Source: Bacteroidales bacterium (GTDB lineage Bacteria; Bacteroidota; Bacteroidia; Bacteroidales; P3). Taken from it: a DNA stretch of 40,138 nt. Below are positions 18,693 to 39,253 of this stretch, piece after piece. The position numbers and the translations under genes are program-made. Below the pieces are notes generated by a model. It did not search any database. It worked only from the letters and a program-made list of their open reading frames with translations, and had not been told where the DNA came from. Position 1 is the stretch's first letter; every line of letters begins with the position of its first letter. The stretch lies in NCBI GenBank assembly GCA_031274555.1, contig JAISPZ010000080.1:1-40138 (forward strand), given 5' to 3'.

Positions 18693-19054
18693 CAACAAAA
18701 AAACGCCCAAAATTCCCCCAAATCTACCCAACCTCAAAAAAATCAAAATAATACAGATATGTGTATAAAATTATCACTACTGATACTTTTTTAACTTTTT
18801 TTCTGCACAAAATTAACATTCGTTAATATTATTATAACAGTACAAGTTTCTTTGTACATATTTTTCAAAATCTACTATTTTTAATGCTCATTAACGTATT
18901 AAAATACTCATATTAAATACTTTATATTTTTTAAAAATCTACTACTTTATAAAACTGCCCTTTAATATCAACAAAAAATTGTTTTTTGTTTGTAGGTTTA
19001 CATAGTCCAATTGGAATATTAGTCAGTACATTCATTATCAATATTTTAACTACA
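18693..19054 (+). promoter_or_regulatory. AT-rich leader upstream of SusC with a direct repeat
   Basis: This 362-bp gap contains no gene that I can support. AAAATCTACTA occurs at 18867 and again at 18934, 67 bp apart, followed in each case by an AT-rich tail. This is a candidate site for the locus regulator. A single promoter could not be chosen with confidence. Confidence 0.35.
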
Positions 19055-22000
19055 ATGGTCAGTTTGAAAAAAAATGTTTTTGCATTATGTTATTTTCTAA
19101 TGATATTAATGCTAAATGCAAGCGCACAGGCGCAAGAGTTCAACGTGTCGGGCAAAATCACCGATAGTAAAGGCGAGCCTGTCGTGGGTGCAAACGTAAT
19201 GGTGCAAGGTACTTTGCAAGGTGTAGCAAGCGATGTGTCAGGCAATTACAACATTCAAGCCAATGCTAATTCCACGCTCGTTTTTTCGTTTATGGGGATG
19301 GCAACTCTCAACGAGCCTGTCAATGGACGCAGCAATATCAACATCACCCTGACTCAGAACGCACAAAGCATTAACGAAGTTGTTGTTATCGGCTACGGCA
19401 CGATGAAAAAGAGTGATGTTACAGGTGCGGTTGCCTCTGTAAAAGGGGATGCCCTGAAGAAATCCCCTGCGGCAAATCTTACTCAAGCACTACAAGGACA
19501 GGCAGCAGGTGTCACCGTAAACTCTAATTCGGGACAGCCCGGCTCGGCAGCCACAGTACGTATTCGCGGCATCGGAACTCTTAATAACAGCGACCCTATT
19601 TATGTGGTTGATGGTATTATTGTAAGTGATATTTCGTTTATCAACGCTAACGATATTGAAAGTACGGAAATCTTAAAGGACGCTTCCGCCTCTGCCATTT
19701 ACGGCTCACGCGGTGCTAACGGAGTAATTATCATCACAACAAAAAAAGGTACAGAGCAGAAAGGAAGAATATCTGTTGATGCTTATGCGGGCTTTCAAAA
19801 TCGCTGGAAAAAGTTGGATATTATGCAGAGTAAAGAGTTTGCTCAAACGTTGGTAATGCTCGCAGACGAAGCACCACAGACAGCTCTGTTTAATAAGGGC
19901 AAGGGCTTTACAAGGTGGCTGCAAACATATCGCTTGGGCAGGTCGCCTTATTATCCAACTAATTTTGATTATTCTGCGCAGGAAACAGATTGGCAGGACG
20001 AAGTATTCAAGCAAAACGCACCCATACAGAGTTATAACCTCTCTTTCACAGGCGGGGATGCCACAAAGCAATATGCCTTGAGCGCAGGTTATTTCGACCA
20101 AAGCGGTACAGTTATAGGCTCTTATTACAGGCGTTTAACAGTACGTGCAAACACGTCATACAAAATAAGAAAATGGCTCACAGTAGGCGAAACCATGACT
20201 TATATGACTTCCACTTACCGCAACGCGCCCAACAATAGTGGCAGTGCGGGAGCATCAGTACTTACAGCTGCGCTCGCTATGGCACCTTGGGATCCTGCTC
20301 ACTATCCCGACGGTGCGGTAAACAATCTTGGGGAAAACATTGGCGGAAGACCGTCCGCTGCCTCTAACTTCAAGAACGTTACAAATCCCTTTTCGATGGT
20401 AGAAACTAATCATCCATTAGACTATACCGACCGCGTTGTAGGCGATGTTTACTTAGAATTAACACCCATAGAGGGCTTGTCAATACGTTCGTCCGTGAGT
20501 TTGGACTTCTCAATGCTGCGCAACCGCTCATTTGGCGATATGTACGAATATTCTACTTATGACAAGCGTACAAAGAACTTCCTGTCAAGCTCGCTCTCTC
20601 GCTACTATACACTTATGAACCAAAATGTTGCGACTTACAGCAAAACTATTAAAAAACACTCGTTTTCCATCATGGCGGGGCAGACAGTCGAAGAATATAA
20701 TTACTACAATCTTGGCAATTCAGGCTCTACAATTCTCGTTCCCGATCCAGCAAATTGGTATTTGTCACAGACTACGGATGATAACACCAATCCCGCGGGG
20801 GACAATGTGGACAGAACGCGGATGTTATCCTTTCTGGGACGTCTGCACTACTCGTTTGATGACCGTTATTTAATAACAGTTAATTTCCGCGCGGACGGAT
20901 CAAGCAAATTCCCTCGACATCGTTGGGGTTATTTTCCCTCAGCAGCACTTGGCTGGCGCATAAGTCAGGAAAAATTCTTCAAAGACGTTAAAGGTTTGGA
21001 TGAACTTAAAGTGCGTGTCGGCTGGGGACAACTCGGCAACCAAAGCAGCGTAGGCTCGGGTGATTTTCTGCAAGGCATAAATTCGGGAATGTATTTTTCG
21101 AGCTATATTTTAGGGCAGGGAGGCGCGTACATGGACAACAACTCTGTTAATGATGGACAGGAAGCCGCACAGGGAGCATCTATCAATACATGGGTAAACT
21201 TGGACGGCAAATGGGAAGTTACAGAACAGTGGAACGCGGCGATAGACTTCGGCGTTTTGAAAAATCGCCTGTTGGGAACACTTGATCTTTTCAGGCGTGA
21301 AACAAAAGAGATGTTTCTATTCGTATCCGCCCCTGCTTATACAGGCAATCTGTTCAGTCCGAAAGCGAACGTAGGCACTGTGCGCAACGACGGTATCGAA
21401 CTTTCGCTTAACTGGCAGGACACCAAAAAAGGTTTTTCCTATTCTATCGGTGGAAATATCAGCTTTATTAAGAACGAGCTGACGAAGCTCAATGGCGGTT
21501 TTCCTGTATATGGTGACCGCGTAATCAGCGATATAGGTTTAGGACTTTATACTTACTACGGCTACGAATATTTGGGAATATACAAGAGCGACAAAGAAGT
21601 CACAGACTATCTGTGGGCAACTGCCGCAGGCACGTACGGTCGGGGTGATGCCAAATATTTAGACCAAAATGATGATGGAAAAATTGATGATAACGACCGT
21701 GTAGAGCTTGGCAACCCTTTCCCATGGCTGACGTACGGTATCAATGCAAGTGTTGAATATTTCGGGTTTGATTTATCACTGTTCTTTCAAGGCGTTTACG
21801 GCAACGAGTTGTACAATGCGCAGCGCGAAAAATTAGAGGGACCCGGCAATGAAATGGTGATGAGTACAGCTATGCGCGATGCATATACGCCGTCCAATCC
21901 CAACGGAACTATCCCCAATCCTGTCAATGCCGTAAACTTCTACACTTCGAGCCGATTCATTGAAAGCGGTGCTTATATGCGCCTCAAAAACTTGCAGTTA

Positions 22001-22189
22001 GGCTACACTTTGCCACAGAAATTGACGCGCAAGGCATTTATTGACCGCCTGCGCGTATATTTTTCCGCGAGTAACGTGTTCACAATCACTAAATATAGCG
22101 GCTACGACCCCGAAGTCGGGAGTGGAGTTGATTACGGCAATTACCCGCAGGCGCGTACCATTATGTTTGGAGTAAACCTTGACTTTTAG
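19055..22189 (+). CDS. SusC-like TonB-dependent outer-membrane transporter
   Basis: Outer-membrane importer of about 1044 residues, started at ATG 19055 (MVSLKKNVFALCYFLMILML, signal peptide ending near ASAQA). The upstream in-frame start would add 23 residues before the signal. An N-terminal carboxypeptidase-regulatory-like domain (GKITDSKGEPVVGANVMVQG) is followed by the TonB-box/plug region NEVVVIGYGTMKKSDVTGAV (about 107-126). A plug and a beta-barrel end in IMFGVNLDF. It pairs with the SusD protein encoded next. Flanking GH128 and GH16 genes suggest it imports beta-1,3-glucan oligosaccharides. Confidence 0.95.
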   Translation: MVSLKKNVFALCYFLMILMLNASAQAQEFNVSGKITDSKGEPVVGANVMVQGTLQGVASDVSGNYNIQANANSTLVFSFMGMATLNEPVNGRSNINITLTQNAQSINEVVVIGYGTMKKSDVTGAVASVKGDALKKSPAANLTQALQGQAAGVTVNSNSGQPGSAATVRIRGIGTLNNSDPIYVVDGIIVSDISFINANDIESTEILKDASASAIYGSRGANGVIIITTKKGTEQKGRISVDAYAGFQNRWKKLDIMQSKEFAQTLVMLADEAPQTALFNKGKGFTRWLQTYRLGRSPYYPTNFDYSAQETDWQDEVFKQNAPIQSYNLSFTGGDATKQYALSAGYFDQSGTVIGSYYRRLTVRANTSYKIRKWLTVGETMTYMTSTYRNAPNNSGSAGASVLTAALAMAPWDPAHYPDGAVNNLGENIGGRPSAASNFKNVTNPFSMVETNHPLDYTDRVVGDVYLELTPIEGLSIRSSVSLDFSMLRNRSFGDMYEYSTYDKRTKNFLSSSLSRYYTLMNQNVATYSKTIKKHSFSIMAGQTVEEYNYYNLGNSGSTILVPDPANWYLSQTTDDNTNPAGDNVDRTRMLSFLGRLHYSFDDRYLITVNFRADGSSKFPRHRWGYFPSAALGWRISQEKFFKDVKGLDELKVRVGWGQLGNQSSVGSGDFLQGINSGMYFSSYILGQGGAYMDNNSVNDGQEAAQGASINTWVNLDGKWEVTEQWNAAIDFGVLKNRLLGTLDLFRRETKEMFLFVSAPAYTGNLFSPKANVGTVRNDGIELSLNWQDTKKGFSYSIGGNISFIKNELTKLNGGFPVYGDRVISDIGLGLYTYYGYEYLGIYKSDKEVTDYLWATAAGTYGRGDAKYLDQNDDGKIDDNDRVELGNPFPWLTYGINASVEYFGFDLSLFFQGVYGNELYNAQREKLEGPGNEMVMSTAMRDAYTPSNPNGTIPNPVNAVNFYTSSRFIESGAYMRLKNLQLGYTLPQKLTRKAFIDRLRVYFSASNVFTITKYSGYDPEVGSGVDYGNYPQARTIMFGVNLDF

Positions 22190-22227: not shown

Positions 22228-23814
22228 ATGAACAAAATATATAGCTTATTATTAGTCAGCGTGCTGACAACAGTCGGCATGACGGGTTGCAGCAAGTGGC
22301 TTAGCGAACCACAGCCTGCAAAACCGGGTATTGAAGATTTTTTTGCTGCCGGTGGCGGGTCAGCCGCAGTACAGGCGGTGAACGGTGCTTACGTTCCGCT
22401 GCAATGGGAATATGGTCATACTTACAGCCCCGAATGGTGGATTGGGGACGTGTCATCCGACGATGCCCTTAAAGGCGGACAGAACATTAGCGATATGTCA
22501 GCTGCTTTTGAATTTGACAATTTTAAAATATCAGACAATAATGATATTTTACTCGATTGGTATCAGTCTAATTTTCAGGGAATTGCACGTTGCAATTTCG
22601 TCTTGGAGGAAGTTCCTGACGTTGAGCCTGACAGCCTGATGGACCTGCGCACTAAAAAACGCCTTATAGCAGAAACAAAATTTTTACGCGCCCTGTACTA
22701 CTTCCGCTTAGTGCGCGTATTCAAGGAAGTACCGCTGATAACTTTCACAATACAGTCGTCATCCGATTGGAAACAACAAAGGGCGAGTGTTGAAGATATT
22801 TACGCACAGATTATTCGCGATTTGGAAGATGCTAATAAAGACCTTTGGACTGTTGCCGAAATACGCAGAAATTCTGCCGAAATCGGACGAGCCACAAAAG
22901 GTGCTGCCCAAGCAATGCTGCTTAAAGCACACTTGTATCGCCAAAATTGGGGTATTGCCAAATCGTGGGGCGACTCAATTATTTCGAGTGGACAATATTC
23001 GTTAGAGCCTGTTTATGCCGACAATTTTAGCATTTATAACGAAAATGGCGTAGAGTCCGTTTTTGAAGTGCAGTATTCCGAAGAAGCAAGCAGTGACTAC
23101 GGCAGTTTTAATCCGCATTTTGGCGGCACACGCGGAACTTTCACAACTATTTTGACACGCTCACGCTCTACCAATATACCTAAACTTGCGAGTGGCGGCG
23201 GTGCAGAGGGATGGGGCTTTAACAAGCCTACTCAAAGCCTGTATGACGAGTTTGAAGCTGGGGATGCACGTAGAGATGCCTCTATCCTCAATCTGCCCGA
23301 CAACCTTATGAGCAATCCGACAGACGAAATTTATTTGGGCTGCCGTTACCTTACGCGCAAATATGCCCTTATGGATGCTGATAATGCTTGTCTGTGGGAT
23401 GGACACGCCACCCGCGCACCAATAAATATTAAACTTATCCGTTATGCTGACGTGCTGCTGATGTACGCCGAAGCCTGCAACGAGTCGGGTGATGTGAGTA
23501 CAGCGACACAGGTACTCAACAGCCTGCGCAGCGTACGCCGCGCCGAATGTGCCGACCCAGGCACCCAGCTGCAAGATTTTCCCAACTATGGCATATCCGA
23601 CCTGCGTTCTGCTTTGCGCCACGAGAGGCGCGTTGAACTTGCCTTGGAGAGTCACCGCTGGTTTGACCTTGTGCGTTGGGGAATTGCCAAGCAGACGATG
23701 GACACTTACAAGGCAGGCGAAACAGCAGCAGTGCAAGCCCAGATGGGAACTTTTATAGAGGGAACGCATGAGTACTTCCCGCTTCCGCAGTATGAGCTGG
23801 ACCTGTCGGAATAA
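22228..23814 (+). CDS. SusD/RagB-family surface glycan-binding lipoprotein
   Basis: A 528-residue lipoprotein with signal and lipobox ending at Cys21 (VGMTGC). TPR-like helices, the conserved RFLRALYYFRLVRVFKEVPL-like segment (here KFLRALYYFRLVRVFKEVPL) and the family C-terminal signature RHERRVELALESHRWFDLVR identify SusD. It would cap the SusC barrel and bind substrate at the cell surface. The gene follows SusC by 38 bp, in the usual order. Confidence 0.95.
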   Translation: MNKIYSLLLVSVLTTVGMTGCSKWLSEPQPAKPGIEDFFAAGGGSAAVQAVNGAYVPLQWEYGHTYSPEWWIGDVSSDDALKGGQNISDMSAAFEFDNFKISDNNDILLDWYQSNFQGIARCNFVLEEVPDVEPDSLMDLRTKKRLIAETKFLRALYYFRLVRVFKEVPLITFTIQSSSDWKQQRASVEDIYAQIIRDLEDANKDLWTVAEIRRNSAEIGRATKGAAQAMLLKAHLYRQNWGIAKSWGDSIISSGQYSLEPVYADNFSIYNENGVESVFEVQYSEEASSDYGSFNPHFGGTRGTFTTILTRSRSTNIPKLASGGGAEGWGFNKPTQSLYDEFEAGDARRDASILNLPDNLMSNPTDEIYLGCRYLTRKYALMDADNACLWDGHATRAPINIKLIRYADVLLMYAEACNESGDVSTATQVLNSLRSVRRAECADPGTQLQDFPNYGISDLRSALRHERRVELALESHRWFDLVRWGIAKQTMDTYKAGETAAVQAQMGTFIEGTHEYFPLPQYELDLSE

Positions 23815-24801: not shown

Positions 24802-26121
24802 ATGAAGAAATATAGCATACTGATTGTTCTTTTCGCCTTGCTTTACAGCTGTGAACCCAAGCCACAACCTGTCGAAGATATTGTCTATGCCGACAGCAAT
24901 AAATACACCATGAAGCAAGCACCGAGTGCCAAACGAGGTATAGGTTTTAACTCGCTTTACGAAAATGACTTTGAAGCTATCAGGAAAGGCATAACATGGG
25001 CCTACAATTGGGGCACGTCAGGATTTAATGCCACTATTGAGGCAGCAGCCGTTAAAGCAGGTGTAGCGTTCGTTCCAATGGTATGGAACGGCGGTGGCAA
25101 TTGGGCAGATGCTATTCGTAACTACAAAAAGAAATATCCAGACTGCGAGTATTTCCTCGCTTTTAATGAACCAAATCTAACGGATCAAGCCAATATGACA
25201 CCCACGCAGGCGGCAGCGAAGTGGAATGAAGTCAAAAATCTGGCACAGGAATTAAATATGAAAATAGTCGCACCTGCAATGAACTACGGAACATTGGCAG
25301 GATACAGCGACCCAATAAAATGGTACGACGAATTTTTCGCCAAGCCAAACGTTTCATTAGACGATGTAAGCGCACTGTCCCTGCATTGCTATATGAACAA
25401 TCCATCTGCATTAAAGAGCTATGTAGAGCGTTTCAGAAAGTACGACAAGCCGATATGGATGACGGAGTTTTGCGCATGGGAAGGCGACCGTACAGCGGAA
25501 CAGCAACGCGCATATATGAGCGATGTGCTCAATTATTTTGAAGCCGAACCGATGGTAGAGCGTTATGCGTGGTTCAAGTACGACGGCAGTACGACAAACA
25601 ATCCACAATATGCCTTGCGTCCCACAGGCAACAGTAAAGGCGAATTGACGGATTTAGGAAAAGTATATGTTAATCTATCCTCTTATGATAAAGAGTTTCA
25701 TTACGGACATAATCAGGTAATTCCCGCAGAACACTATTGCAACAGCAATTTCAGCGAAGTAGGCAATAACGATTGGGTAGCAGGTGTTCAACTTAAAGTA
25801 AGTTCTGATGAAACAGGAATTTTAGAAGTTGCAAATTTCGGTTTGCCAAAATGGTTGGAATATAAAATAGAGCCTGTTGTAAACGGTGATTATCATTTCA
25901 TTATGCGTTACGCTTGCAACAGTGACTCAAAATATAAAATATTATTGGACGGTGATGAAATTGGCGAGATAGACCTGCCAAAAACAGGCGGTTACACATC
26001 GTGGCAAACGATTACCACCCCCACCCTGCCCTTAAAATCAGGAAAGCATACCGTCAGAATTGTGCCAAGCAAAGGGATGATAAGCCTTAACTGGTGGCGG
26101 TACAAACGCGAAGGAATTTAG
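24802..26121 (+). CDS. GH128-family endo-beta-1,3-glucanase lipoprotein
   Basis: A 439-residue lipoprotein (lipobox ending Cys17, LLYSC). Residues about 43-270 match the glycosyl-hydrolase catalytic core of GH128: GIGFNSLYENDFEAIRKGIT, WAYNWG, FVPMVWNGGG, the acid/base Glu123 in AFNEPN and the nucleophile Glu222 in WMTEFC. GH128 enzymes hydrolyse beta-1,3-glucans. The C-terminal part (about 310-436) resembles a CBM6-type beta-sandwich (YKIEPVVNGDYHFIMRYACN). The lipobox plus locus context suggest surface display and cooperation with the GH16 enzymes downstream. Confidence 0.88.
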   Translation: MKKYSILIVLFALLYSCEPKPQPVEDIVYADSNKYTMKQAPSAKRGIGFNSLYENDFEAIRKGITWAYNWGTSGFNATIEAAAVKAGVAFVPMVWNGGGNWADAIRNYKKKYPDCEYFLAFNEPNLTDQANMTPTQAAAKWNEVKNLAQELNMKIVAPAMNYGTLAGYSDPIKWYDEFFAKPNVSLDDVSALSLHCYMNNPSALKSYVERFRKYDKPIWMTEFCAWEGDRTAEQQRAYMSDVLNYFEAEPMVERYAWFKYDGSTTNNPQYALRPTGNSKGELTDLGKVYVNLSSYDKEFHYGHNQVIPAEHYCNSNFSEVGNNDWVAGVQLKVSSDETGILEVANFGLPKWLEYKIEPVVNGDYHFIMRYACNSDSKYKILLDGDEIGEIDLPKTGGYTSWQTITTPTLPLKSGKHTVRIVPSKGMISLNWWRYKREGI

Positions 26122-26249: not shown

Positions 26250-26298
26250 GCAAAGCGCATAATAGAATGTAGAATTAAAATATAAAAAACAAAATACT

Positions 26299-29200
26299 AT
26301 GAAAAAAATATTATTACTATCGGCAATCTTGTCTTTCGCTTTTACAGCACTATCTCAACCAATAGGGACAATGATTATGAAAGGCGTAGAACTTCACGAG
26401 CAGGGTGTTCCTACTAATGTGTTTCCTCAAACAGTTGATTTTAAGATTGTAACGCTAAACGGTAAAACGTGGGCGCATACTAACTTAAATGGCAGTGTTC
26501 TCGGCGGTGATGGTTGGACAAGCCAACTTCGTTTTTGGAATGACACAAATGGCGGTAAAGTAGAAAACAATCTACTAAATCGCTTCAATAATGTAGAAAG
26601 TTGGGGAAGCACAACTGTCCCACCTCATTCTGGTGGGCATATCAGTATTTTTCAAGGTTTTTCTAACAACACATTTGCAGAAACGGATCAGTTTATTTAC
26701 GATGATGCCATTGCAAATACCCCTGTGGAGGGCGATCTTACAGCCCCCTTACTCACCGTTTACAATACTGAAAATGTTACGCAAGTTTCAGCGATGTTAC
26801 GCTTCGCAGTGACAGAAGATAATGACTATTTTTATCACGTTCTCTGTGACGGTGTAGATTATATTTTATTTGCAGACAGCCTGTCGCTTACAGGTCTTGC
26901 GCCTGCCACCCTCTACCATTACGAAATTACCCCTTATGACTTTAGCGGTAATGCGGGCACTACGCAAGTTATTGAATTTACAACACCCGGTGCCATTTTT
27001 CTAAGCATCCCGACAGATATAAGTATTACAGACAGCACCATTTCCTACACAGGGGACGCTAATGCTTTGACCCATACAGTAACTGTTTATAGAGGGACTT
27101 CCGTACTTATTGAACTTATTCAAAACATTGATGATGAAGCAGGTGGAATTTTGCATTGCCAAAATCTGCCGAGTGGCGCATACAGAGTAACCGTTCAAGC
27201 AATGGGCGACGAAGTGAATATTATGAGTTCAAGTGTATCCACCGTGTATGATTGGAATTTTATAAACGATAATTACGTTGCCCCTGTTGTAGGTACTTCC
27301 AATAATTGCAGACAATTATTTAATACTGTACTGTTTACAGTCGAAACAAATGACAACAATTTAGTAGTAAGTATTGCCCCGCCAATTGAGGGACAACGTG
27401 CCAATTTTAGAGCTGCTGGTTTCCGAGCCGAGAATTTTACTGTCAATGGAATTACAGGCACTTGGTTTACTAAAGCAGAAGCTAACGGCAACGTTACGCA
27501 ACAAACGTTTACGCCTGTCGTACCGCTACATGTTGGGGATATTATCAACTATAATGGTACTATGGAATACATGACACCTACCGATGGCAATGCATACGAT
27601 TTAGGTTTTAATCTCGGAAAAATTGGCGGAGCATTTGTCTGGGGCAGTCGCTGTCAGCGATTAGGTACTCCTCACGACATTTCCGTAAATGAAAATCGTC
27701 AAATTCTCTTTTCGGACACAGTCAATGAACCGACCGATGTAGAAGAATATTTACTAACAGTCTATAACAGTGCAAATATTGCGGTAGCAACACAATTAGT
27801 TGATTCGGGCGACATATTGCTCTACGACGTAGCAGGTGGCACAGTTACACTGCAAGCGGTTTCAAATAATCCTGATATAGCTGCTTCTGACCCGGCTTCC
27901 TACGATTGGACTTATACCAATACAGACAGAATTACCTACCCAACAGGTTTTTGGAACACACTTATTGATGTAAGCGGTGGTGGTAATGCTTGCACTGATG
28001 ATGGTGATGCTGCGGAATGGACATGGGAAACAATTGAAGGAAAATTAATTATTACTATTCAGCCAGGTCCTACAGGCTTTGCTGATTTTAGAAACACTAA
28101 TGGACCTAATAACGTATCTGCATATAGTCTTAACGGTGTTCCGGGTACTTATTTTGACATAGCTCGCACATCTTCTAACCAAATAACACTTACTCCCATA
28201 GTGCCAATTAATTACGGGGACGTTGTAAGCTATAATGGTCAGGTGACATACAGAACTTTAGTAGCTAATACCGCGCAGGGCTGCAATCTTCAAGATTTAT
28301 ATCCCACTATTAATTTTGCCAATTTCGGTACGTTTGTATGGGGAACGAAAGGTCCAACTCTGTTTGAGCCTCAAAATATTAACGTTGATGAAAATCGTGT
28401 ACTGACTTTTGACGGCGATACGGCAGCAGGCAGTTACAACGTAAAAATTTACAACGACCAAGGATTTTTAGTTGCCGAACAAACGGTGTCTGGCAGTGGT
28501 GAAACGATTCTTTATGACGTATCGGGAAGTTACACTATAAAAATGCAATCACTGCCCAAGTCGGAAAGACATTTTGTATCGCTTATTTCTACCCCATATC
28601 ATTGGGAATACGAAAATAGTGAAGCACCTAAATTCCCATCTATCTTCTGCTCATTTTCTATGGACTGCTCTGTAAATCACGGTGACAACGACCGTGCAGT
28701 ATTTACCTGGGAAACTATAGACAATAAACTCGTTATCAGTATTGCTTCCGACTTGGAGTCCGGCAATTCAGAAACATTCTTCCGTGGCAACGGTATGGTG
28801 GTTAGTGGATTTTCAATCAACGGAGTACAGGCTAACGACTATTTTACTCTCGAAATTAACGCTGAAAAGTCAGCAATTACGTTCACTCCCACAGGAACTA
28901 TCAACCCTGGCGATCAAATAACCTATAACGAAATGATAGAATACCGCACTGCCCTTACCGGTGAAACTGCGTTGTGGCCTACAGTAAACTTCGCCAACTA
29001 CGGTTCATATACTTGGGGCACAACCTGCGACTATTCGCCACAGGTTTATGCTAATCCGTCAGCATTGACCTTTACGCCCGACACAGGAGTCCGTACTTTT
29101 ATACTTGAAGCTCAAATGCTCACATCTGCCGTAACTCTCGAAGCATCAAAAGGATTGGCAGTCGTACCCACGACCGTAACTCCTGACGAAAACGGAAATA

Positions 29201-32190
29201 TTCTTCCGATTGACGTTTATGTTACATGGGAAGAAGGCGGTTCTTCGGAAGGATTTGTACGTATTAAAGGCGGTGGATTAGCTTTCCCGAAACAGATAGC
29301 CGTAAGAGGTGATGGATTTTCGGAATATTGCAACAAGATAATAACTAACCCGCAGACAGGTTTAGAAGCTCCTATCTATCTTTCTATTACAGAAAACGAA
29401 AGCGACCTTATTTTCACTCTCGCGCCTGTTTACGGTGCTCCCGCTTCGGCAAAATGGAATAATATTGTAAATATCACTTCTAATGGCGGACAGGAATTTG
29501 TATCCAAAACAGGCAACGGAACTGCTACTGTTACTGCTACTTTTGACGGTCCACTAAACACCGGCGATACTGTCACTTTTGGCGGAGCATTAATTTGGAC
29601 TGCCGAACAAAGTAATGGTGTTTTAAATGCCAATGCTTATGATAACGGATTCAAAAAATATGTTGTAGGACAGGGTGGATGTGATTTGGACGTGCCCGCT
29701 CCAATAGTTCGTCCCAATATCAGTTATATTAATGTTATTGATGAGAAAAGGGGTGCTGATGCTGTGTCCATTGAAGTTATCATCGGTGACGAACCGACTT
29801 ATGGCGTTGGCAGTATCCGTCTGCGCGAGAAAAACGGACTGAAAGACTTGCAGACACTCCCTGCTTCGGAAGATGGTGCTTATGTCCTGACAGGACTAAC
29901 GGAACTCACCGAATATACGTTCGATATTGTTGCTTTGGATACGCTGGGCTATCCGTCTGTTTTACAGACTGTAACATTTAAGACACGTGGCACTCTGTCT
30001 GCCGGACATTTTGATGTGGAATTTGACCATGCCTATTATGACGGCACGCCACATGCCGCCGTTGTTACGCCAAAAGAGCATATCGCCTCAGGTATCGGGG
30101 ATATAAACCTGATTTATAACGACAGCATAACAGATCATCCTGTAAATGCAGGTGAGCATAATGTTAAGGTGGCAGTTGCACTCGGCACAGACTACCTTGC
30201 AGACACTTTCGATATGGGTGTTCTAAATATTTACAAAGTTGATATTACTGCCGACAGCCTGATTTTTGATACTACCGCCGTATATTATGATGGAACGGCT
30301 CACTCGGTAAGTGTTACAACTACTCCTGCCGTAGCAGGATTAGAGAACGTAGAAGCTGTGTATTACAACGGTAACACAACTGCGCCTGTAAATGCGGGCA
30401 GCTACGTTGTAAGCGTTGATATTTCGGAGGGTCAAAATCACAACGAAGTAGTAAATCTACGTCTTGGTACGTTCATAATAAATCGTGCTATTGCTATCAG
30501 CACAGACAGTTTCTCTTTTGTAGATAGTACTGTTTATAACGGTAGCGCACAGCCTGTAGAAATAAATGCTGATGTTGTCGGACTTGGTGATATTACAGAT
30601 ATATTTTATAATGGCAGTGCTACTGTTCCCGACAGTGTGGGTGTTTACGCTATTTCTATCAATATCGCACAAGGGGATAATTATGAGGCTGTATCGGGAT
30701 TGGCACTCGGTTATCTTACTATTGAAAAAGCCACTCCTCTTGCTTTGCATCTGGATTATACACCAAAGAGTGTGCAGTACGATGGTGAAGGGCATGCTGT
30801 AACAGTCTATCTAAAAACGCCTTATAAAGGGTTGGGCAATGTTACAGTAAAATATGACGGCGCGACAACTGTGCCGTCCGCTGTTGATGTCTATCAGATT
30901 ACAGTCAGCATTGATGAGGGTTACAACTTTTTGGCAACGACCGAAGATATTGTACTCGGCGACTTCACTATTTCCAACAAGCCACTCGTTACATCTGCTG
31001 ATTTGTCATACGAGATAGAGGATGTTGTTTATACAGGAAGTGAGCACCGCGTAACTGTAACAGGTGAAGTTGGCGATATTACCGTATTCTACAATGGTGA
31101 TACCACCGTGCCTGTAAACGCGGGTGATTATATTGTGACGGTGGATGTTGGGGAAACGGAAGTTTATTCAGCTACATACGGTCTGTTGTTAGACACGCTT
31201 ATTGTTGCTAAGGCTACACTTACTCCTGAACATCTTGTGTATATGATACCTGACGGTCTTATTTATAATGGGCTTGCACATCCGGTTGAAGTTTCGCTTT
31301 CCGAAGCATACAGCGGAGCGGGGTCATTTACAGTTCTGTATAACGGCGGTACTGACGAACCTGTGGTGGCGGGTGCATACTCAATTACTTTGAACATGAC
31401 AGAAGGCTCAAACTTCCTGTCGGTTGAGGGTCTGTCTTTGGGTGAACTTATTATTGATCCCAAGCCGTTCGTTAGACTTCTTGACTTGTCGTACCAGATT
31501 GAAGATGTTGTTTATACAGGAAGTGAGTACCGCGTAACTGTAACAGGTGAAGTTGGCGATATTACTGTATTATACAATGGCGATACAACTGCGCCTGTAA
31601 ATGCTGGGGACTATCTTGTGACGGTGAATATTGGGGAAACGGAAGTTTATTCAGCCACATACGACCTGCTGTTGGATACACTTACTATTGCTAAGGCTAC
31701 ACTTACTTTGGAACATCTTGTGTATATGATACCCGACAGTGTTGTTTATGATGAGGCTACACATCCAATTCAGGTTGCGCTTTCCGAAGCGTACAGCGGA
31801 GTGGGTTCGTTCACTGTTCTATATAATGGCAGCACCGACGAGCCTGTGCAGGTGGGTACATACTCAATTACATTGAACGTGGCAGAGGGTTTGAACTTCC
31901 TGTCGGTTGAGGGTCTTGCTTTGGGACAATTAAGGATTGTGGAGCGTGACGGTGTTCGTGTAGAGCCTGCTGCTGGTGCTTTTAGTGCTTCTTTGACGGC
32001 GTATATTTTCCATGACGTGCTTTATGTGAGCAGTCAGGTTGAAAGTGTCCGACTGCTTAACGTCAGCGGGACAACTGTGCTGCGTTCGGGCAGTGTCAAT
32101 GCCTCTGTTGCTCACCTCGCGCATGGTCTGTATATCGCGGTGCTGAAAGGTGCTGACGGTCGGACACGCACGGTGAAGGTGGTGAAATAG
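26299..32190 (+). CDS. Giant T9SS protein with cysteine-framed repeats and eight MBG domains
   Basis: A secreted protein of 1963 residues with an N-terminal signal (MKKILLLSAILSFAFTALSQ). A Trp-rich N-terminal part is followed by fibronectin-III-like linkers. Three copies plus one variant of a repeat of about 120 residues come next, each bounded by cysteines (about residues 334-453, 550-684, 781-911, 1007-1130), and then another fibronectin-like domain. Eight MBG-type beta repeats (about 1233-1884; core VYNG...VNAGxYxVxV) lead to a T9SS sorting domain ending GRTRTVKVVK. No catalytic motif was seen. MBG domains are found in adhesins, so a glycan-binding or surface-adhesion role in the beta-glucan locus is inferred. 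Confidence 0.85.
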   Translation: MKKILLLSAILSFAFTALSQPIGTMIMKGVELHEQGVPTNVFPQTVDFKIVTLNGKTWAHTNLNGSVLGGDGWTSQLRFWNDTNGGKVENNLLNRFNNVESWGSTTVPPHSGGHISIFQGFSNNTFAETDQFIYDDAIANTPVEGDLTAPLLTVYNTENVTQVSAMLRFAVTEDNDYFYHVLCDGVDYILFADSLSLTGLAPATLYHYEITPYDFSGNAGTTQVIEFTTPGAIFLSIPTDISITDSTISYTGDANALTHTVTVYRGTSVLIELIQNIDDEAGGILHCQNLPSGAYRVTVQAMGDEVNIMSSSVSTVYDWNFINDNYVAPVVGTSNNCRQLFNTVLFTVETNDNNLVVSIAPPIEGQRANFRAAGFRAENFTVNGITGTWFTKAEANGNVTQQTFTPVVPLHVGDIINYNGTMEYMTPTDGNAYDLGFNLGKIGGAFVWGSRCQRLGTPHDISVNENRQILFSDTVNEPTDVEEYLLTVYNSANIAVATQLVDSGDILLYDVAGGTVTLQAVSNNPDIAASDPASYDWTYTNTDRITYPTGFWNTLIDVSGGGNACTDDGDAAEWTWETIEGKLIITIQPGPTGFADFRNTNGPNNVSAYSLNGVPGTYFDIARTSSNQITLTPIVPINYGDVVSYNGQVTYRTLVANTAQGCNLQDLYPTINFANFGTFVWGTKGPTLFEPQNINVDENRVLTFDGDTAAGSYNVKIYNDQGFLVAEQTVSGSGETILYDVSGSYTIKMQSLPKSERHFVSLISTPYHWEYENSEAPKFPSIFCSFSMDCSVNHGDNDRAVFTWETIDNKLVISIASDLESGNSETFFRGNGMVVSGFSINGVQANDYFTLEINAEKSAITFTPTGTINPGDQITYNEMIEYRTALTGETALWPTVNFANYGSYTWGTTCDYSPQVYANPSALTFTPDTGVRTFILEAQMLTSAVTLEASKGLAVVPTTVTPDENGNILPIDVYVTWEEGGSSEGFVRIKGGGLAFPKQIAVRGDGFSEYCNKIITNPQTGLEAPIYLSITENESDLIFTLAPVYGAPASAKWNNIVNITSNGGQEFVSKTGNGTATVTATFDGPLNTGDTVTFGGALIWTAEQSNGVLNANAYDNGFKKYVVGQGGCDLDVPAPIVRPNISYINVIDEKRGADAVSIEVIIGDEPTYGVGSIRLREKNGLKDLQTLPASEDGAYVLTGLTELTEYTFDIVALDTLGYPSVLQTVTFKTRGTLSAGHFDVEFDHAYYDGTPHAAVVTPKEHIASGIGDINLIYNDSITDHPVNAGEHNVKVAVALGTDYLADTFDMGVLNIYKVDITADSLIFDTTAVYYDGTAHSVSVTTTPAVAGLENVEAVYYNGNTTAPVNAGSYVVSVDISEGQNHNEVVNLRLGTFIINRAIAISTDSFSFVDSTVYNGSAQPVEINADVVGLGDITDIFYNGSATVPDSVGVYAISINIAQGDNYEAVSGLALGYLTIEKATPLALHLDYTPKSVQYDGEGHAVTVYLKTPYKGLGNVTVKYDGATTVPSAVDVYQITVSIDEGYNFLATTEDIVLGDFTISNKPLVTSADLSYEIEDVVYTGSEHRVTVTGEVGDITVFYNGDTTVPVNAGDYIVTVDVGETEVYSATYGLLLDTLIVAKATLTPEHLVYMIPDGLIYNGLAHPVEVSLSEAYSGAGSFTVLYNGGTDEPVVAGAYSITLNMTEGSNFLSVEGLSLGELIIDPKPFVRLLDLSYQIEDVVYTGSEYRVTVTGEVGDITVLYNGDTTAPVNAGDYLVTVNIGETEVYSATYDLLLDTLTIAKATLTLEHLVYMIPDSVVYDEATHPIQVALSEAYSGVGSFTVLYNGSTDEPVQVGTYSITLNVAEGLNFLSVEGLALGQLRIVERDGVRVEPAAGAFSASLTAYIFHDVLYVSSQVESVRLLNVSGTTVLRSGSVNASVAHLAHGLYIAVLKGADGRTRTVKVVK
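30991..31935 (+). repeat. 483-bp internal duplication of an MBG pair
   Basis: GATGTTGTTTATACAGGAAG occurs at 31021 and at 31504, 483 bp (161 codons) apart. The surrounding MBG pairs 5-6 and 7-8 are nearly identical in DNA over most of their length, showing a recent in-frame duplication. Confidence 0.9.
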
Positions 32191-32331
32191 GAATTTAGAA
32201 TGTAGAATTTAGAATTTAGAATGAGCAAAGCGCAAAATAGAATTTGCGGGGTAGGATTTTGGGCTTAGGTACATTCAATTCTAAATTCTAAGTTCTAAGT
32301 TCTACGTTTTTTCTTAAAATTGCTGTTGGGC
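32191..32331. repeat. Heptamer satellites and AGCAAAGCGCAAAATAG module
   Basis: TAGAATT/TAGAATG units follow the giant gene, then the recurring GAGCAAAGCGCAAAATAGAA module, then reverse-orientation TTCTAAAT units. No gene is seen. With the structured repeat and a second array at 32519-32548 it fills the 378-bp gap. Confidence 0.8.
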
Positions 32332-32452
32332 TGCGTTAGGGATAGTAGCGGAAATCCTTTTTTGCAGCGGGGGCGCGTGTGGTGGGCAAAAAAGATTGCA
32401 GCGGATAGCCCGACCCCGCCCACGAAGCCTGCGAGGGGGCGGGGGAACGCCC
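32332..32452 (-). repeat. Structured dispersed repeat, copy 3 (reverse)
   Basis: On the reverse strand: GGGCGTTCCC, stem CCCCGCCC/GGGCGGGG, core TCGGGCTATCCGCTGCAATC, and stem CTTTTTTGC/GCAAAAAAGG with six T matched by six A. GGATTTCCGCTACTATCCC and AACGCA follow. The end helix GCGTT/AACGC is kept. Confidence 0.88.
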
Positions 32453-32568
32453 AAATTGAATTAAGAATTGAAAATCGAAAATTTCCACGCTTTCCGTTTT
32501 ACGTTATAAAGTTCGCTCATTCTAAATTCTAAATTCTACATTTTACATTAATTTAAAACTATACTACT

Positions 32569-35500
32569 ATGAAACGCCTTTTTTTATTTATTTTGTGTAT
32601 GACTGTCGGCGTAGCGATAGCCGACGAGTCTGATTTTTGCCTGACAAAGGTTACGCCACCGCTTGGCAATAACTGTTCAGGAGATGACCTTAGTGCCGCG
32701 TTCTTTTCGTGGAATACCGAACAGAATGGGACTGTGAGTGTTACTATTACCGGGCTACCCGGCAATACTACCACTTCTTTTCGTGGAGGCACAGGGATGA
32801 ACGCTGCAAACCTGAAAGTTACAGGTAAAGCGGGCGTGACGTTTACAGGTGCTTTCACGGACAACAGTAAAACTGTTATTATTTTTACGCCAAGCGAGCC
32901 GCTTGTTGTGGGTGATGTGCTCACATACAGTGCTTTGGTGGAGTATAAAACTGCGGACGCGCCGCAGGGAGGGTTCGCGTTACAGGACTTGTGGCCCAGC
33001 TTGTCGTTCACTCATACGTTCGGGGATGTCTGTGTTCCGCCCGAACCGCAACCTCTTGCTACGCCCTCAAATATCAACATCTCGCCTGACAATATCATCA
33101 CTTTTACAGGTGATAATAACGCCCTTCGACATCAACTGACAGTACATCGTGGCGCTTCTATCCTGCCAATGCATATTCAAGATGTCAATAGTGGCGACAC
33201 TGTTCATTTTGATATTGCGGGCAGCTACACTGTCACGCTGCAATCGTTTCCGGGTTCGCTGTCTTTCCTCAATTCTGCCGTGTCGGAAGCGCAAGCGTGG
33301 GTTATCGCAGGCGAAATACCAATTGTCGAAGTCGGAGAAACTATCTATTGCAACACTTCTGTCGGCGAGGGGGCTTCCGAAGCATTATTTACTTGGCAGA
33401 CCATAGATAACAATCTCGTTATCAGAATAGCACCTGTGATACTTGACGACCCGGGCACAAAATTCCGCAATCCGATGAACGTAGCAAGATTTACGGTAAA
33501 CGGTTTTGAGGGGACATGGTTTGAGAGTGCTGTATTGAGTGAAAATAACACTGTGCTCACCTACGTTCCGCTTGTTCCACTGCTCGACGGCGACAAGATA
33601 AACTACAACGCTCTAGTGGAATATGCCACCAAAGATAACGGAAATCTCTATCCTACGATTGATTTCGGCGATTATATTTGGGGAAGTCGCTGCCCTGAGG
33701 CTGAGGTGTTGCAGATTCCCGACAATATTGCCGTCACTGACGGTGTGCTTTCGTTTAGCGCAGTGGACAACGCTCTTTCGTACAAGCTCATCGTTTACAG
33801 AGAGCAATCAAACCTCAAGGAGTACGAACAAATCCTCACAACAACAAGTGTCCCACTTGCACTAAACACTCCCGGCAGCTATACACTCACTCTGCGTACT
33901 GTGGGCGACAATGTCGATTATGTGAATAGCGATGAGAGTCCTCGTTATGAGTTTACATTTGTAATTCCCGATTATAAAATACCTGTGGCGGGAGTTTCTA
34001 TCTTCTGTCAATTCGCCTTTGACCCGTCCGCCCAGCATGGTAACAACGACCGTATGGTTCTCTCATGGGAAACAGTCGGCACAAATATTGTTGCCCGCAT
34101 TAGTGACGACGAGGGGAATTTCGCTACCCTCTTTCGTGGAGACGGAATGAGAGCAGAGGCTCTATCAGTAAATGGACAGAGTAACCTCGACTGGTTTACG
34201 TTAGAAACTAACGAAGACAGGACAGCAGTAACATTTATCCCCAATATCCCCCTGCATATTGGCGACAAGTTAGTTTACAACGGTATTATAGAGTACGAAA
34301 CAGGGCTTTTGAGCGAGGTGGCTCTCTGGCCTGTCGTTAATATGGGGAATTACGGTGCTTATGTCTATGGTAGTACCTGCGAATATGCGACTTCGTTAGT
34401 AACGAGCTGCAACTCCATCGTTTTTACGCCCGACACAGGGGTTAGAAGATTTACCGTTTCGGGCAGAAACTTCACGTCCCCGCTCACTGTTACCGCTTCT
34501 AACGGCTTGACGGTGCACAGTCATCATGGACATTCAAAAGTTGATACGCTATATCCGCTATCTAACGGCACTCTGGCTACAACGCCCATAGAGGTACGTT
34601 GGCAGGAAGGCTCATCTGAGGGCGGAGTAGTGCGCATCGAAGGTGGCGGAATGCCTTTTGCCAAGGAAATTCCTGTAACGTCTAACGGTTTCTCGCAGTA
34701 CTGCAATAAGGTACTCAACTATTGGGGCGAATACGGTGCTTATCATGTTTATTTGACAGTCGGTCATCCGAGCGACAATCAGATGTCGTTTCTACTAACT
34801 CCCATATACGGTACTTTCGCAGTCTGGAGCAACAACTCCATTCAGGCTGCTTTAGTTTCTGTCAGTCGTCCCGAAGTTACAGTTGTAACACGTGTGCTTC
34901 AAGACAGTATTATCATTCTCACTTTCAGCGAAGCACTGCAACAGGGGGATGTTATAAGTATTGGACCTAACCCTGCTTTTGTATGGCAGACGGAGAACGC
35001 AAACGGTGACAGATACTACAACTGCTATATTGACCCTGTACAGACATATACGGTTGGCTTAACGTGCGACCTGTCCGTACCACATCCGGCAGTACTGCCA
35101 CAGATAGTACAAGTGGATCATCAGCCTGTTTCTCTCGAAGAAAGTTCTGTTAAAATCCATGTGGCGCATGGGACATACCCTATCTCGCATATTCATCTGT
35201 GGGAGCTGGAAGACAAAATATCTCACAGGATTACACCGCTGTCAGGCGACAGCCTTTATTCTATCACAGGTTTGGAAGAGTACAATACTTATTACGTAAG
35301 AATGGCAGCCATAGACGAAAAGGGATATTCGTCACTTTATGAAAATCTAACTATTAAAAATCTCGGCGTGTTGTCGGTCAGCGATTTCAACCTGACGGAT
35401 ACTGTCGTTTTTGACGGACTGCCGCACGAAGCCGAATTTAATCTTCCCAATGGTACAGGGGAAGTTCTGTCTGTAACTTACAATGGTCTTGACGATCCTC

Positions 35501-36858
35501 CCACAGACGTAGGTGATTACAGTATTGCTGTGAGCGTCAGCGAGGGCACAAGATACCATGCTGTCGACAATATGAATATTGGCGTTTTGCATATTGTTAA
35601 GGGCGGGATGGGTGCGCATTTGTTAGAACACACCGCAGGGACGTACGTCTATGATGGCGAGCCTCACCGCGCAACTGCAAATATCAAAGAGGACGTACCG
35701 GGTGCAGGCAGTATTACGGCAATAAAATATAACGGCGACACTTCCGCCCCTGTCAATGCCGACATTTACGTTGTGTCGGTGGATATTTCGGAAGGGATAA
35801 ACTTCTATCCTACTTATGATTTGGTTATTGACACGTTAGTAATCTTGCGAGCCGAAGCTACCGCGGACCTTATCACTTTTGAGATGGACACAACTGCCGT
35901 CTATAACGGACTGCCACATTCGCTAACGGCATTTGGGGTTGCAGGCTTGGGTGAGATAACGTTAAAATATAACGGCTACGCAGAGGCTATAAACGCGGGA
36001 ACATATACTGTTACTGCCGACGTTGCGCAGGGACAAAACTACAATGCTGCAAGTGACTTCGTGCTAACGACTGACTTCTCTATCAGCAAGGGAGTGTTGC
36101 AAGCCTCATGTTTCACTTTTCCTGCTTTTGCGCCTCTGCACGACACAGGCTCATCCGTTGCTGTAACGCTTGTCGAGCCTTACACAGGCGCGGGGGTTCT
36201 GACGGTGAAATATAACGGCAGCACCGAGTTGCCCAAGTTAGCGGGCATTTATCTCTTGTCAGTAAGTGCAGAAGAGGGCGACAACTTTTTCGCAACGGAA
36301 GAAGATATTATTTTAGACAGTGTGCTTATCTCAGAGGCACAGACTCTCACTGTGCGCATTGTTGATGAAAACGGATATACTCTTTTATCCCCCAATTTCA
36401 CTGTAACTGTTGAGGGCTATATTGATTTTGCTGCTTCAACAAGATTTGATAACGAGCTTGTAACAGTGAGCGGAAAAGCCATCTTCACTGACATCCCTCG
36501 CGGTGGCACGTTCACCATAACTGCTGTCGCTGACGGCTACATTGTAGAGGACAGGGAGATAGTTTCGCTGCAGCAGGACACTGTCGTTGTGATGGAAGCG
36601 ATTGCGGAAAGGAGCAGCATTGAGGTGGCGGAGGTTTCGGCGAAGCCTGTCATATATACTTCAAACGGCACATTATTTATCGTGTCCACACTCCCCTACC
36701 GCACGTTGTCCCTCTACAACATATTAGGCTCAAGGGTTTACTCCGCCAAGAACTTCGCGCAATCTTCAAACCACAACATTTCTCATCTACCCGCAGGCAT
36801 GTACATTGTAGTCCTCGACGGCACGCGGCGCGACACGGCGAAAGTGGTGAAGATGTAG
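32569..36858 (+). CDS. Second giant T9SS protein, paralogue with four MBG domains
   Basis: A 1429-residue secreted protein with signal MKRLFLFILCMTVGVAIAD. Its layout parallels the preceding giant protein. Four cysteine-framed repeats (nt about 32638-33033, 33343-33693, 34000-34380, 34696-35070) alternate with Ig-like linkers. A fibronectin-like domain, four MBG repeats (nt about 35360-36330), a carboxypeptidase-regulatory-like domain (TLTVRIVDENGYTLLSPNFT) and a T9SS sorting domain ending RDTAKVVKM follow. Unlike its neighbour it lacks the long Trp-rich N-terminal part. It is probably a second adhesin or glycan-binding factor. The two arose by duplication and then diverged in repeat number. 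Confidence 0.85.
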   Translation: MKRLFLFILCMTVGVAIADESDFCLTKVTPPLGNNCSGDDLSAAFFSWNTEQNGTVSVTITGLPGNTTTSFRGGTGMNAANLKVTGKAGVTFTGAFTDNSKTVIIFTPSEPLVVGDVLTYSALVEYKTADAPQGGFALQDLWPSLSFTHTFGDVCVPPEPQPLATPSNINISPDNIITFTGDNNALRHQLTVHRGASILPMHIQDVNSGDTVHFDIAGSYTVTLQSFPGSLSFLNSAVSEAQAWVIAGEIPIVEVGETIYCNTSVGEGASEALFTWQTIDNNLVIRIAPVILDDPGTKFRNPMNVARFTVNGFEGTWFESAVLSENNTVLTYVPLVPLLDGDKINYNALVEYATKDNGNLYPTIDFGDYIWGSRCPEAEVLQIPDNIAVTDGVLSFSAVDNALSYKLIVYREQSNLKEYEQILTTTSVPLALNTPGSYTLTLRTVGDNVDYVNSDESPRYEFTFVIPDYKIPVAGVSIFCQFAFDPSAQHGNNDRMVLSWETVGTNIVARISDDEGNFATLFRGDGMRAEALSVNGQSNLDWFTLETNEDRTAVTFIPNIPLHIGDKLVYNGIIEYETGLLSEVALWPVVNMGNYGAYVYGSTCEYATSLVTSCNSIVFTPDTGVRRFTVSGRNFTSPLTVTASNGLTVHSHHGHSKVDTLYPLSNGTLATTPIEVRWQEGSSEGGVVRIEGGGMPFAKEIPVTSNGFSQYCNKVLNYWGEYGAYHVYLTVGHPSDNQMSFLLTPIYGTFAVWSNNSIQAALVSVSRPEVTVVTRVLQDSIIILTFSEALQQGDVISIGPNPAFVWQTENANGDRYYNCYIDPVQTYTVGLTCDLSVPHPAVLPQIVQVDHQPVSLEESSVKIHVAHGTYPISHIHLWELEDKISHRITPLSGDSLYSITGLEEYNTYYVRMAAIDEKGYSSLYENLTIKNLGVLSVSDFNLTDTVVFDGLPHEAEFNLPNGTGEVLSVTYNGLDDPPTDVGDYSIAVSVSEGTRYHAVDNMNIGVLHIVKGGMGAHLLEHTAGTYVYDGEPHRATANIKEDVPGAGSITAIKYNGDTSAPVNADIYVVSVDISEGINFYPTYDLVIDTLVILRAEATADLITFEMDTTAVYNGLPHSLTAFGVAGLGEITLKYNGYAEAINAGTYTVTADVAQGQNYNAASDFVLTTDFSISKGVLQASCFTFPAFAPLHDTGSSVAVTLVEPYTGAGVLTVKYNGSTELPKLAGIYLLSVSAEEGDNFFATEEDIILDSVLISEAQTLTVRIVDENGYTLLSPNFTVTVEGYIDFAASTRFDNELVTVSGKAIFTDIPRGGTFTITAVADGYIVEDREIVSLQQDTVVVMEAIAERSSIEVAEVSAKPVIYTSNGTLFIVSTLPYRTLSLYNILGSRVYSAKNFAQSSNHNISHLPAGMYIVVLDGTRRDTAKVVKM

Positions 36859-37154: not shown

Positions 37155-38084
37155 ATGAAAAAATATGTACTTATTCTTGCGGCGTGTATCGTTGGATACA
37201 TCCTTACATTCAGTGCTTGCAGCGAAAGTAACACTGACCCGAAGACAGAGCCTGTCATTATCCCCGAAAATACGATACACCCCGAATATGAGGGCTACAC
37301 GTTGGTCTGGGTGGATGATTTCAGCGCGACAGAACTTGACAAGTCCGCCTGGAACATCGAAGTAAACGGTGACGGCGGCGGCAACAACGAATTGCAGTTC
37401 TATCGTGAAGAAAACGTAACTTTGGGAGTAGAGCCACAAAGTGAAAAAAAATGCTTGATACTTACAGCGAAAAAAGAAACATATCAGGGAAAGACCGCCA
37501 CTTCGGGACGCGTAACAAGTATGGAGAAAAAGTTTTTTAAACATGGACGTATAGAAGCATCGATTAAACTGCCACAGACCGCAAACGGCTTGTGGCCTGC
37601 CTTTTGGATGATGGGCAACGACTATCCGTCAGTGGGCTGGCCCCATTGTGGCGAAATTGACATCTTGGAAATGGGACACTCCAACGGTATCCGCAATTCC
37701 ACCCAGGACCGCTATTTTAACGGAGCTTGTCACTGGGGCTTGTCGTGGAACGGTGGCGCATACCCCAATTACGCAAAAGCCTCTACGAACAGCTACAGTA
37801 TGCAAGACACTTTCCACCTCTACACCCTTATCTGGGACGACAACTATATCCGTATGTACCTTGACATAGATAAATACCATGATGTAGAGCCATATTACGA
37901 GATGAATATTTCCGACAAGAGTTCAGACAACTCCCCGGGCAAATACTTCCACAAAGAATTTTTTATACTGTTCAACCTCGCTGTTGGCGGGAACTTTCCG
38001 GGAATTTGGAACATTGCCGAAATAACCGCCTTGTCGAACGGCGAAGTTAAAATGTACGTGGACTTCGTGAGAATATACCAATAG
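37155..38084 (+). CDS. GH16 endo-beta-1,3(4)-glucanase lipoprotein
   Basis: A 309-residue lipoprotein (lipobox ending Cys22, LTFSAC). It begins with the GH16 signature YTLVWVDDFSATELDKSAWN. Catalytic residues are in GEIDILEMG: nucleophile Glu167, Asp169 and acid/base Glu172. The substrate-cleft region LWPAFWMMGNDYPSVGWPHC is typical of laminarinases. It ends soon after the catalytic domain with no binding module. The lipobox suggests surface attachment. It should cut beta-1,3- or mixed beta-glucans. It is duplicated in tandem with the next gene. Confidence 0.93.
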   Translation: MKKYVLILAACIVGYILTFSACSESNTDPKTEPVIIPENTIHPEYEGYTLVWVDDFSATELDKSAWNIEVNGDGGGNNELQFYREENVTLGVEPQSEKKCLILTAKKETYQGKTATSGRVTSMEKKFFKHGRIEASIKLPQTANGLWPAFWMMGNDYPSVGWPHCGEIDILEMGHSNGIRNSTQDRYFNGACHWGLSWNGGAYPNYAKASTNSYSMQDTFHLYTLIWDDNYIRMYLDIDKYHDVEPYYEMNISDKSSDNSPGKYFHKEFFILFNLAVGGNFPGIWNIAEITALSNGEVKMYVDFVRIYQ

Positions 38085-38308: not shown

Positions 38309-38332
38309 AAAAACCTGAAAATATATAAACAA

Positions 38333-39253
38333 ATGAAAAAGTATATACTTATTTTTATGACATATATCGCTGGATATGTTCCCATATTCGGTTTTGGAAC
38401 TGAAAGCAACATATATGCTGAAACAGAATCTATTACTGTCCCCGAAGATACAACCCACCCCGAATACGCAGGCTACACGTTAGTCTGGGTGGACAATTTC
38501 AATACAGCGAAACTTGACACTTCCAATTGGAACATCGAAGAAAACGGTGGCAACAGCAACGAATTGCAGTTTTACCGCGAAGAGAACGTATCGTTGGGAA
38601 TAGAGCCACAGAGCGGCAAACAGTGCCTAATACTTACAGCGAAAAAAGAAACATATCAGGGAAAAACCGCCACTTCGGGACGTGTGAACAGTCTTGGAAA
38701 AAAGATTTTTGAATATGGACGTATAGAAGCATCGATTAAACTGCCACAGACTGCAAACGGCTTGTGGCCCGCCTTTTGGATGATGGGCAACGACTATCCA
38801 GCAGTGGGCTGGCCCCATTGTGGAGAAATTGACATCTTTGAAATGGGAAGCTATGGCGGTATCCGCAATTCTATCCAGGACCGTTATTTTAATGGGGCTT
38901 GCCATTGGGGTTTGTGGGACAATGGCGCAAACCCAAGTTACGCAAAAGCTATCACAAACAGTTACAGTATGCAAGATACTTTCCACCTCTACACCCTTAT
39001 TTGGGACGACAACTATATCCGTATGTACTTAGACATAGATAAATACCCTGATGCGAAGCCGTATTACGAGATGGATATTTCCGACAAGAGTTCAGACTAT
39101 TCCCCGGGCAACTACTTCCACAAAGAATTTTTTATAATTTTCAACATCGCTGTTGGTGGCAACTTTCCCAAAATTTTGGACATCGCAGGAATAACCGCCT
39201 TGTCAAGTGGCGAAGCTAAAATGTACGTGGACTTCGTGAGAATATACCAATAG
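38333..39253 (+). CDS. Second GH16 beta-glucanase, lipobox lost
   Basis: A 306-residue paralogue of the preceding enzyme, closely similar across the catalytic domain. It carries intact GEIDIFEMG (Glu165, Asp167, Glu170) and LWPAFWMMGNDYPAVGWPHC. Its N-terminus MKKYILIFMTYIAGYVPIFG aligns without gaps, but the lipid-modified cysteine position is now Gly22 (IFGFGTES). It should not be lipidated and is probably periplasmic or released. It may be cleaved by signal peptidase I near NIYA. Activity on beta-1,3-glucan is expected. The absence of a C-terminal sorting domain argues against T9SS export. Confidence 0.92.
   Translation: MKKYILIFMTYIAGYVPIFGFGTESNIYAETESITVPEDTTHPEYAGYTLVWVDNFNTAKLDTSNWNIEENGGNSNELQFYREENVSLGIEPQSGKQCLILTAKKETYQGKTATSGRVNSLGKKIFEYGRIEASIKLPQTANGLWPAFWMMGNDYPAVGWPHCGEIDIFEMGSYGGIRNSIQDRYFNGACHWGLWDNGANPSYAKAITNSYSMQDTFHLYTLIWDDNYIRMYLDIDKYPDAKPYYEMDISDKSSDYSPGNYFHKEFFIIFNIAVGGNFPKILDIAGITALSSGEAKMYVDFVRIYQ

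Follow-up and report, generated by a model that had tools for sequence, protein, structure and literature searches.

Two unit-bearing proteins in a beta-1,3-glucan locus

The stretch analyzed here (the window) covers positions 1 to 40,138 of contig JAISPZ010000080.1, from the Bacteroidales assembly GCA_031274555.1, a metagenome-assembled genome (MAG) that is 78% complete. Its main locus runs in the order DUF6377, SusC, SusD, a small protein, a glycoside hydrolase of family 128 (GH128) with a carbohydrate-binding module (CBM), two giant proteins that we call A and B, and two GH16 enzymes (Table 1). A and B each carry four copies of a repeated unit, and these units are a genuine domain family that has no name.

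The two proteins are co-linear paralogues, with 33% identity by blastp between residues 327 to 1639 of A and 28 to 1344 of B, and the limits given earlier for their open reading frames (ORFs) proved exact in an ORF check. In both, four units with immunoglobulin (Ig)/fn3-like spacers between them are followed by MBG_3 repeats and then by a C-terminal tail. Three of the units in each protein are of one kind (type I), and the fourth (A4 and B4) belongs to a divergent type II. Pfam placed MBG_3 (PF18887) in eight stretches of A (E value of 2e-33) and three of B, as repeats C-terminal to the units; the units themselves are not MBG domains, and the best MBG_3 stretches lie outside them on the C-terminal side. 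The tail of B scored 28.8 bits with TIGR04183 (cut-off of 23), which marks it as a type A sorting signal for the type IX secretion system (T9SS). The tail of A, which is paralogous to it, scored 14.3 and 16.8 bits, under the cut-offs of TIGR04183 and PF18962, and we infer that A is displayed at the cell surface. Most unit proteins carry a T9SS tail. Inspection by eye of the N termini of A and B revealed no lipobox-like Cys at the usual position.

Two further features of A were noted. Its N-terminal domain (26356-26988, about 200 residues) is shared, as judged by eye, with unit-free neighbors in relatives (L018:484-2007 and L019:11895-13751), which are separate proteins in neighboring beta-glucan loci; it represents a second unnamed domain. 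Its MBG stalk contains a recent internal duplication (30978-31760), with 300 nucleotides 84% identical at a spacing of 483 nucleotides.

Table 1. Features of the A/B locus, in positions of the window
Feature	Positions	Strand	Remarks
DUF6377 protein, probable locus regulator	16896..18692	+	DUF6377 also adjoins the unit gene in G432
SusC-like TonB-dependent transporter	18986..22189	+	Locus annotation
SusD-like protein	22228..23814	+	Locus annotation
GH128-type glucanase (PF11790) with CBM6/35-like domain	24802..26121	+	Pfam
Protein A, 1963 amino acids	26299..32190	+	ORF; N-terminal domain, Ig-like spacers, units A1-A4, MBG_3 stalk, C-terminal tail
Ig/fn3-like spacer ahead of A1	26983..27297	+	No Pfam match at cut-off
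Unit A1, type I	27280..27663	+	Cys337-Cys452
Ig/fn3-like spacer, A1-A2	27655..27966	+	Sequence comparison
Unit A2, type I	27952..28362	+	Gly for last Cys; extra loop Cys662 at 28282-28284
Ig/fn3-like spacer, A2-A3	28348..28644	+	Sequence comparison
Unit A3, type I	28630..29037	+	Cys784-Cys910; modeled, all beta
Beta spacer of a second kind, A3-A4	29029..29328	+	Sequence comparison
Unit A4, type II, divergent	29317..29691	+	Cys1011-Cys1128
MBG_3 (PF18887) repeats of A, presumed stalk	29992..31998, limits approximate	+	Pfam
T9SS-type C-terminal tail of A	32032..32187	+	Score under curated cut-offs
Protein B, 1429 amino acids	32569..36858	+	ORF; units B1-B4, spacers, MBG_3 repeats, T9SS tail
Unit B1, type I	32626..33042	+	Cys24-Cys155
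Unit B2, type I	33331..33702	+	Cys261-Cys375
Unit B3, type I	33988..34389	+	Cys480-Cys604
Unit B4, type II	34690..35076	+	Cys712-Cys833
MBG_3 repeats of B	35341..36288, limits approximate	+	Pfam
T9SS type A sorting tail of B	36676..36855	+	TIGR04183
GH16	37155..38084	+	Pfam
GH16, second copy	38333..39253	+	Pfam

Homology, cysteines, and predicted fold of the units

A sequence-only reading of this DNA had described eight units, four per protein, with common internal marks, framed by a pair of Cys residues (one unit having Gly in place of the last) and forming a beta domain of no named family. All of this was supported by the comparisons that follow, except that A4 and B4 lack the WET and FR marks and form a divergent subtype. 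In an all-against-all phmmer comparison, the type I units (A1 to A3 and B1 to B3) were interlinked at E values of 1e-12 to 1e-45. The type II units were reached at 5e-7 (A4 to A1) and 2e-12 (A4 to B4), and B4 matched type I only at about 0.01 to 0.1. In a profile-profile comparison the two types matched from end to end, at 96.8% probability and an E value of 2.6e-10, and the first and last Cys of one type fell on those of the other. Because of these phmmer and profile-profile scores, the likeness of the units cannot be put down to chance. In a tree, type II units of the window and of two other genomes (G132 and G332, see below) clustered at 100/99 support, indicating either that the split between the types is older than that between these lineages or that units have been exchanged among them.

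Most of the Cys residues of A and B lie inside units, where the two framing ones are about 115 to 132 residues apart (Table 1). In a collection of 88 distinct units from at least 10 genera, all 83 units that cover the first Cys have kept it, and 80 of 83 have kept the last one. Two of the exceptions are A2 and its G132 orthologue, which have Gly at the last position but an additional Cys in the loop before it, making exactly two Cys each; in the third, a unit at locus L111, the Cys is shifted by two residues (TYGSTAQC). The framing residues are therefore conserved together, with compensation in A2, and they behave as a pair. The loss of one partner and gain of another in A2 is what would be expected of a disulfide bond, which the framing Cys probably form, as judged from this pattern of conservation; the swap offers a natural test case for it.

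An AlphaFold2 model of isolated unit A3, built with 19 aligned units, was of high confidence (predicted local distance difference test [pLDDT] of 91.3 and predicted template modeling score [pTM] of 0.86) and mostly beta, with short helical turns, as expected of a discrete, independently folding domain such as a CBM in the CAZy sense. A model of the whole tip of A (804 amino acids) reached a pLDDT of 66 and a pTM of 0.33, which makes it usable for strand order but not for domain arrangement; the strand order is repeated alike in A1, A2, A3, and A4.

No Pfam, NCBIfam, or PDB-sequence family matched the units at curated cut-offs, with either single sequences or profiles, and Foldseek found no match to the A3 model at an E value of <0.001 among PDB and viral models. 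The best PDB matches were weak and Ig-like (ZP-N, PcoC/CopC, antibody and titin Ig, and S-layer domains), with template modeling (TM) scores of about 0.25 to 0.4. Ig-like domains such as CopC/PcoC, ZP-N, and the bacterial Ig-like groups are thus the closest, if weak, fold matches, being likewise all beta, but these matches are not significant (E values of 0.014 or more, TM scores of about 0.3) and have no counterpart in sequence, and the unit differs in having framing Cys at both ends. Nor did the literature searched yield any named laminarin-binding domain of this type, which is no proof of absence. Several candidates were discarded. Profile matches to the PDB entries of acyl-CoA hydrolase, ZDHHC17, and lysenin (E values of 0.06 to 0.4) were weak, varied with the alignment, and are attributed to chance; a CBM_5_12 match of A2 (E value of 0.005 alone and 0.12 in the whole protein) concerned one of the eight members and was under the cut-off; and matches to TOBE_2, Reovirus L2, and PBP5_C fell in the MBG region, outside the units. 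Being absent from Pfam and NCBIfam in the versions searched, the domain is a useful annotation marker.

Could the unit belong to an established CBM or Ig family and be too divergent for the libraries searched to reveal it? These covered Pfam, NCBIfam, the PDB, and viral models rather than the CAZy models or the AlphaFold database, and the fold is Ig-like. Yet neither single sequences nor profiles retrieved any Pfam, NCBIfam, or PDB-sequence family, and the structural matches stayed at the low scores given above, so that we consider this quite unlikely.

Distribution and genomic association of the units

Within the genome of the window, units were found only in A and B. In its taxonomic family, 2 of 190 genomes carried them, its own and one of the same genus (G132; unit contig JAIRNR010000019.1 of MAG Bacteroidales Cd354_bin43). 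A sample of the order yielded them in G332 and G432, a phylum sample of 395 genomes had none other than those of the window, and a profile scan of genome contigs with a four-unit alignment detected them in a Dysgonomonadaceae MAG (L032). Units were present in 21 of 200 genomes (8 of 33 genera) from the family of G432. In all, three or more Bacteroidales lineages besides that of the window have them. The samples of the window's own family and of the order were searched with A2, a less sensitive query, so that these counts are lower bounds. A weak and partial match in G230 (E value of 0.003) was not counted.

The units are strongly linked to beta-1,3-glucanase loci, both locally and statistically. 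The unit locus of G132 encodes GH128 and GH16; that of G332, two GH128, GH16, GH2, and GH3; and that of L032, GH128, GH16, and GH3. In G432, some 16 kb separate the unit gene from GH128 in a SusCD/GH16/GH30 cluster; an assignment to a pectin locus was dropped in view of the SusCD/GH16/GH128 cluster downstream. Over the family of G432, GH128 (PF11790) was present in 18 of the 21 genomes with units and in 38 of the 179 without (Fisher P value of 7.8e-9). With proximity defined as GH128 within 25 kb of a unit gene, 12 of the 18 genomes had it on the same contig at 0.8 to 22.6 kb, compared to 0.53 expected from genome size. The sampled genomes are related rather than independent and the P values overstate the evidence, so that it is safer to rely on the count of about eight genera: five hold the 12 cases (six of them in a single genus), to which those of the window, G332, and L032 are added. 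In the order sample, GH128 occurred in all three unit genomes versus 36 of 393 overall. Other surroundings were also seen, with GH3 near the unit gene in G1038, G1054, and G993, a unit fused to a DUF4886 domain (G983:C33), and, in another relative, one fused to a domain of the F5/8C carbohydrate-binding type.

In the remainder of the window, the tandem GH16 pair (37155-39253) includes DNA stretches 86 to 88% identical, pointing to a recent duplication. The small gene after SusD (23916-24722) encodes a 268-amino-acid protein with no Pfam match; look-alikes occur near GH128 in G132, G332, L032, and G432, and a five-member profile matches two more loci. An intergenic repeat of about 110 to 120 bp flanks A in opposite orientations (26140-26259, forward; 32330-32452, reverse); with 46 genome-wide matches at 75 to 100% identity, it looks like a high-copy repetitive extragenic palindromic (REP) element or miniature inverted-repeat transposable element (MITE). 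The contig ends (1-118 and 40021-40137) are mutual inverted copies, 97 to 98% complementary, indicating that the contig breaks off within a repeat. Tandem units of 39 nucleotides lie within a BadF/DUF2229 protein gene (11766-11960) and of 63 nucleotides within the DUF6377 protein gene (18097-18285).

Possible roles and comparison with known systems

This context suggests that the unit is probably a new sugar-binding module or CBM-like family. On balance we lean toward reading the units as Ig-like beta domains of a new family, closed by a disulfide, that act as CBMs for beta-1,3-glucan on stalked T9SS proteins. The more specific version, in which this stapled family is specific for beta-1,3-glucan and, at four per protein, captures insoluble glucan beside SusD and surface glycan-binding protein (SGBP) lipoproteins, is plausible, though we would not quite count on it. 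Under this proposal, A and B would be exported by the T9SS and anchored on the cell surface through their C-terminal tails, the MBG_3 stalk would raise the unit-bearing tip, and the four units, set apart by Ig-like spacers, would give multivalent binding to beta-1,3-glucan that is insoluble or long. The chain could then be cut at the surface by the GH128 and GH16 glucanases of the locus, and the pieces imported by the SusCD pair. Both glucan binding and multivalency are inferred from architecture and neighborhood.

Several observations weigh against this proposal. In the order sample, 33 of the 36 genomes with GH128 had no units, which must be dispensable for a beta-glucan diet. The sequence-only reading had placed the domain only in the beta-glucan locus; this holds for the incomplete assembly of the window but not for every relative, as G1031 encodes two unit proteins far from beta-glucan genes, one (L105) beside TsaD, TamB, and a GDSL lipase and the other (L106) beside an S41 peptidase. 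Pfam detected no catalytic domain in A or B, which therefore do not place the units within a carbohydrate-active enzyme, where a CBM in the CAZy sense belongs. Within the units, no conserved surface aromatic platform or binding face was identified, and W27 is frequently I, V, or M in other copies, like a buried residue. Finally, Ig-like folds are very often simple spacers.

This last point leads to the strongest alternative, although we consider it unlikely, namely, that the units are structural Ig-like spacers lengthening and stiffening the stalk, while the actual binding is left to a head formed by the N-terminal domain of A or by some other protein encoded in the locus. The Ig-like character of the weak fold matches, the alternation of units with Ig/fn3-like domains ahead of the MBG repeats, and the failure to identify a binding site all fit such a role, as does the separate nature of the N-terminal domain, also found in unit-free neighbors. 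A mere spacer would, however, have little reason to track GH128 loci over eight genera; B, G332, and others have units without an A-type N-terminal domain; and the MBG and fn3-like domains already fill the spacer job. That the units instead dock proteins, gathering GH128, GH16, and SusCD or anchoring cells to a eukaryotic surface, is very unlikely: they are encoded within the enzyme operon, adhesins and scaffolds too show repeated units and T9SS surface export, and units exist outside glucan loci, but the GH128 and GH16 proteins have CBM6/35 or nothing extra rather than a dockerin-like module, and the GH128 proteins of L032 and G332 bear T9SS tails of their own.

Should glucan capture by the units be correct, they would establish a CBM family whose fold is a new variant. 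Their sequences would also make it possible to trace glycan capture by T9SS-displayed proteins among gut Bacteroidales, whose known surface binders are lipoproteins of the SusD-like and SGBP kinds. The GH128 association also points to a directly testable ligand.

Among known systems, the chitin utilization locus of Flavobacterium johnsoniae is likewise a polysaccharide locus for a recalcitrant polymer in a T9SS host, but its target is chitin (PMC5127042), and A and B lack any catalytic domain by Pfam. CHU_1279 of Cytophaga hutchinsonii, bimodular and SGBP-B-like, is reported to be a modular surface glycan binder of a member of the Bacteroidota needed for the use of an insoluble glucan; its ligand is cellulose rather than beta-1,3-glucan (PMC12016534). 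In Bacteroides, 1,3-glucan loci capture their substrate via the SusD-like SGBP-A and the sequence-divergent SGBP-B (PMC7157763). SGBP-B, a surface glycan-binding protein that is not SusD-like, shares its locus with SusCD, GH16, and GH3 (PMC7157763), a setting like that of A and B, whose locus also joins SusCD to beta-1,3-glucanases. In this comparison of features, A and B differ in their far larger size and in having T9SS tails instead of a lipobox. The position of SGBP-B in the window is filled by the separate small gene after SusD, whose product may be a lipoprotein binder, and the units of A and B would do an SGBP-like capture job beside it in a T9SS format.

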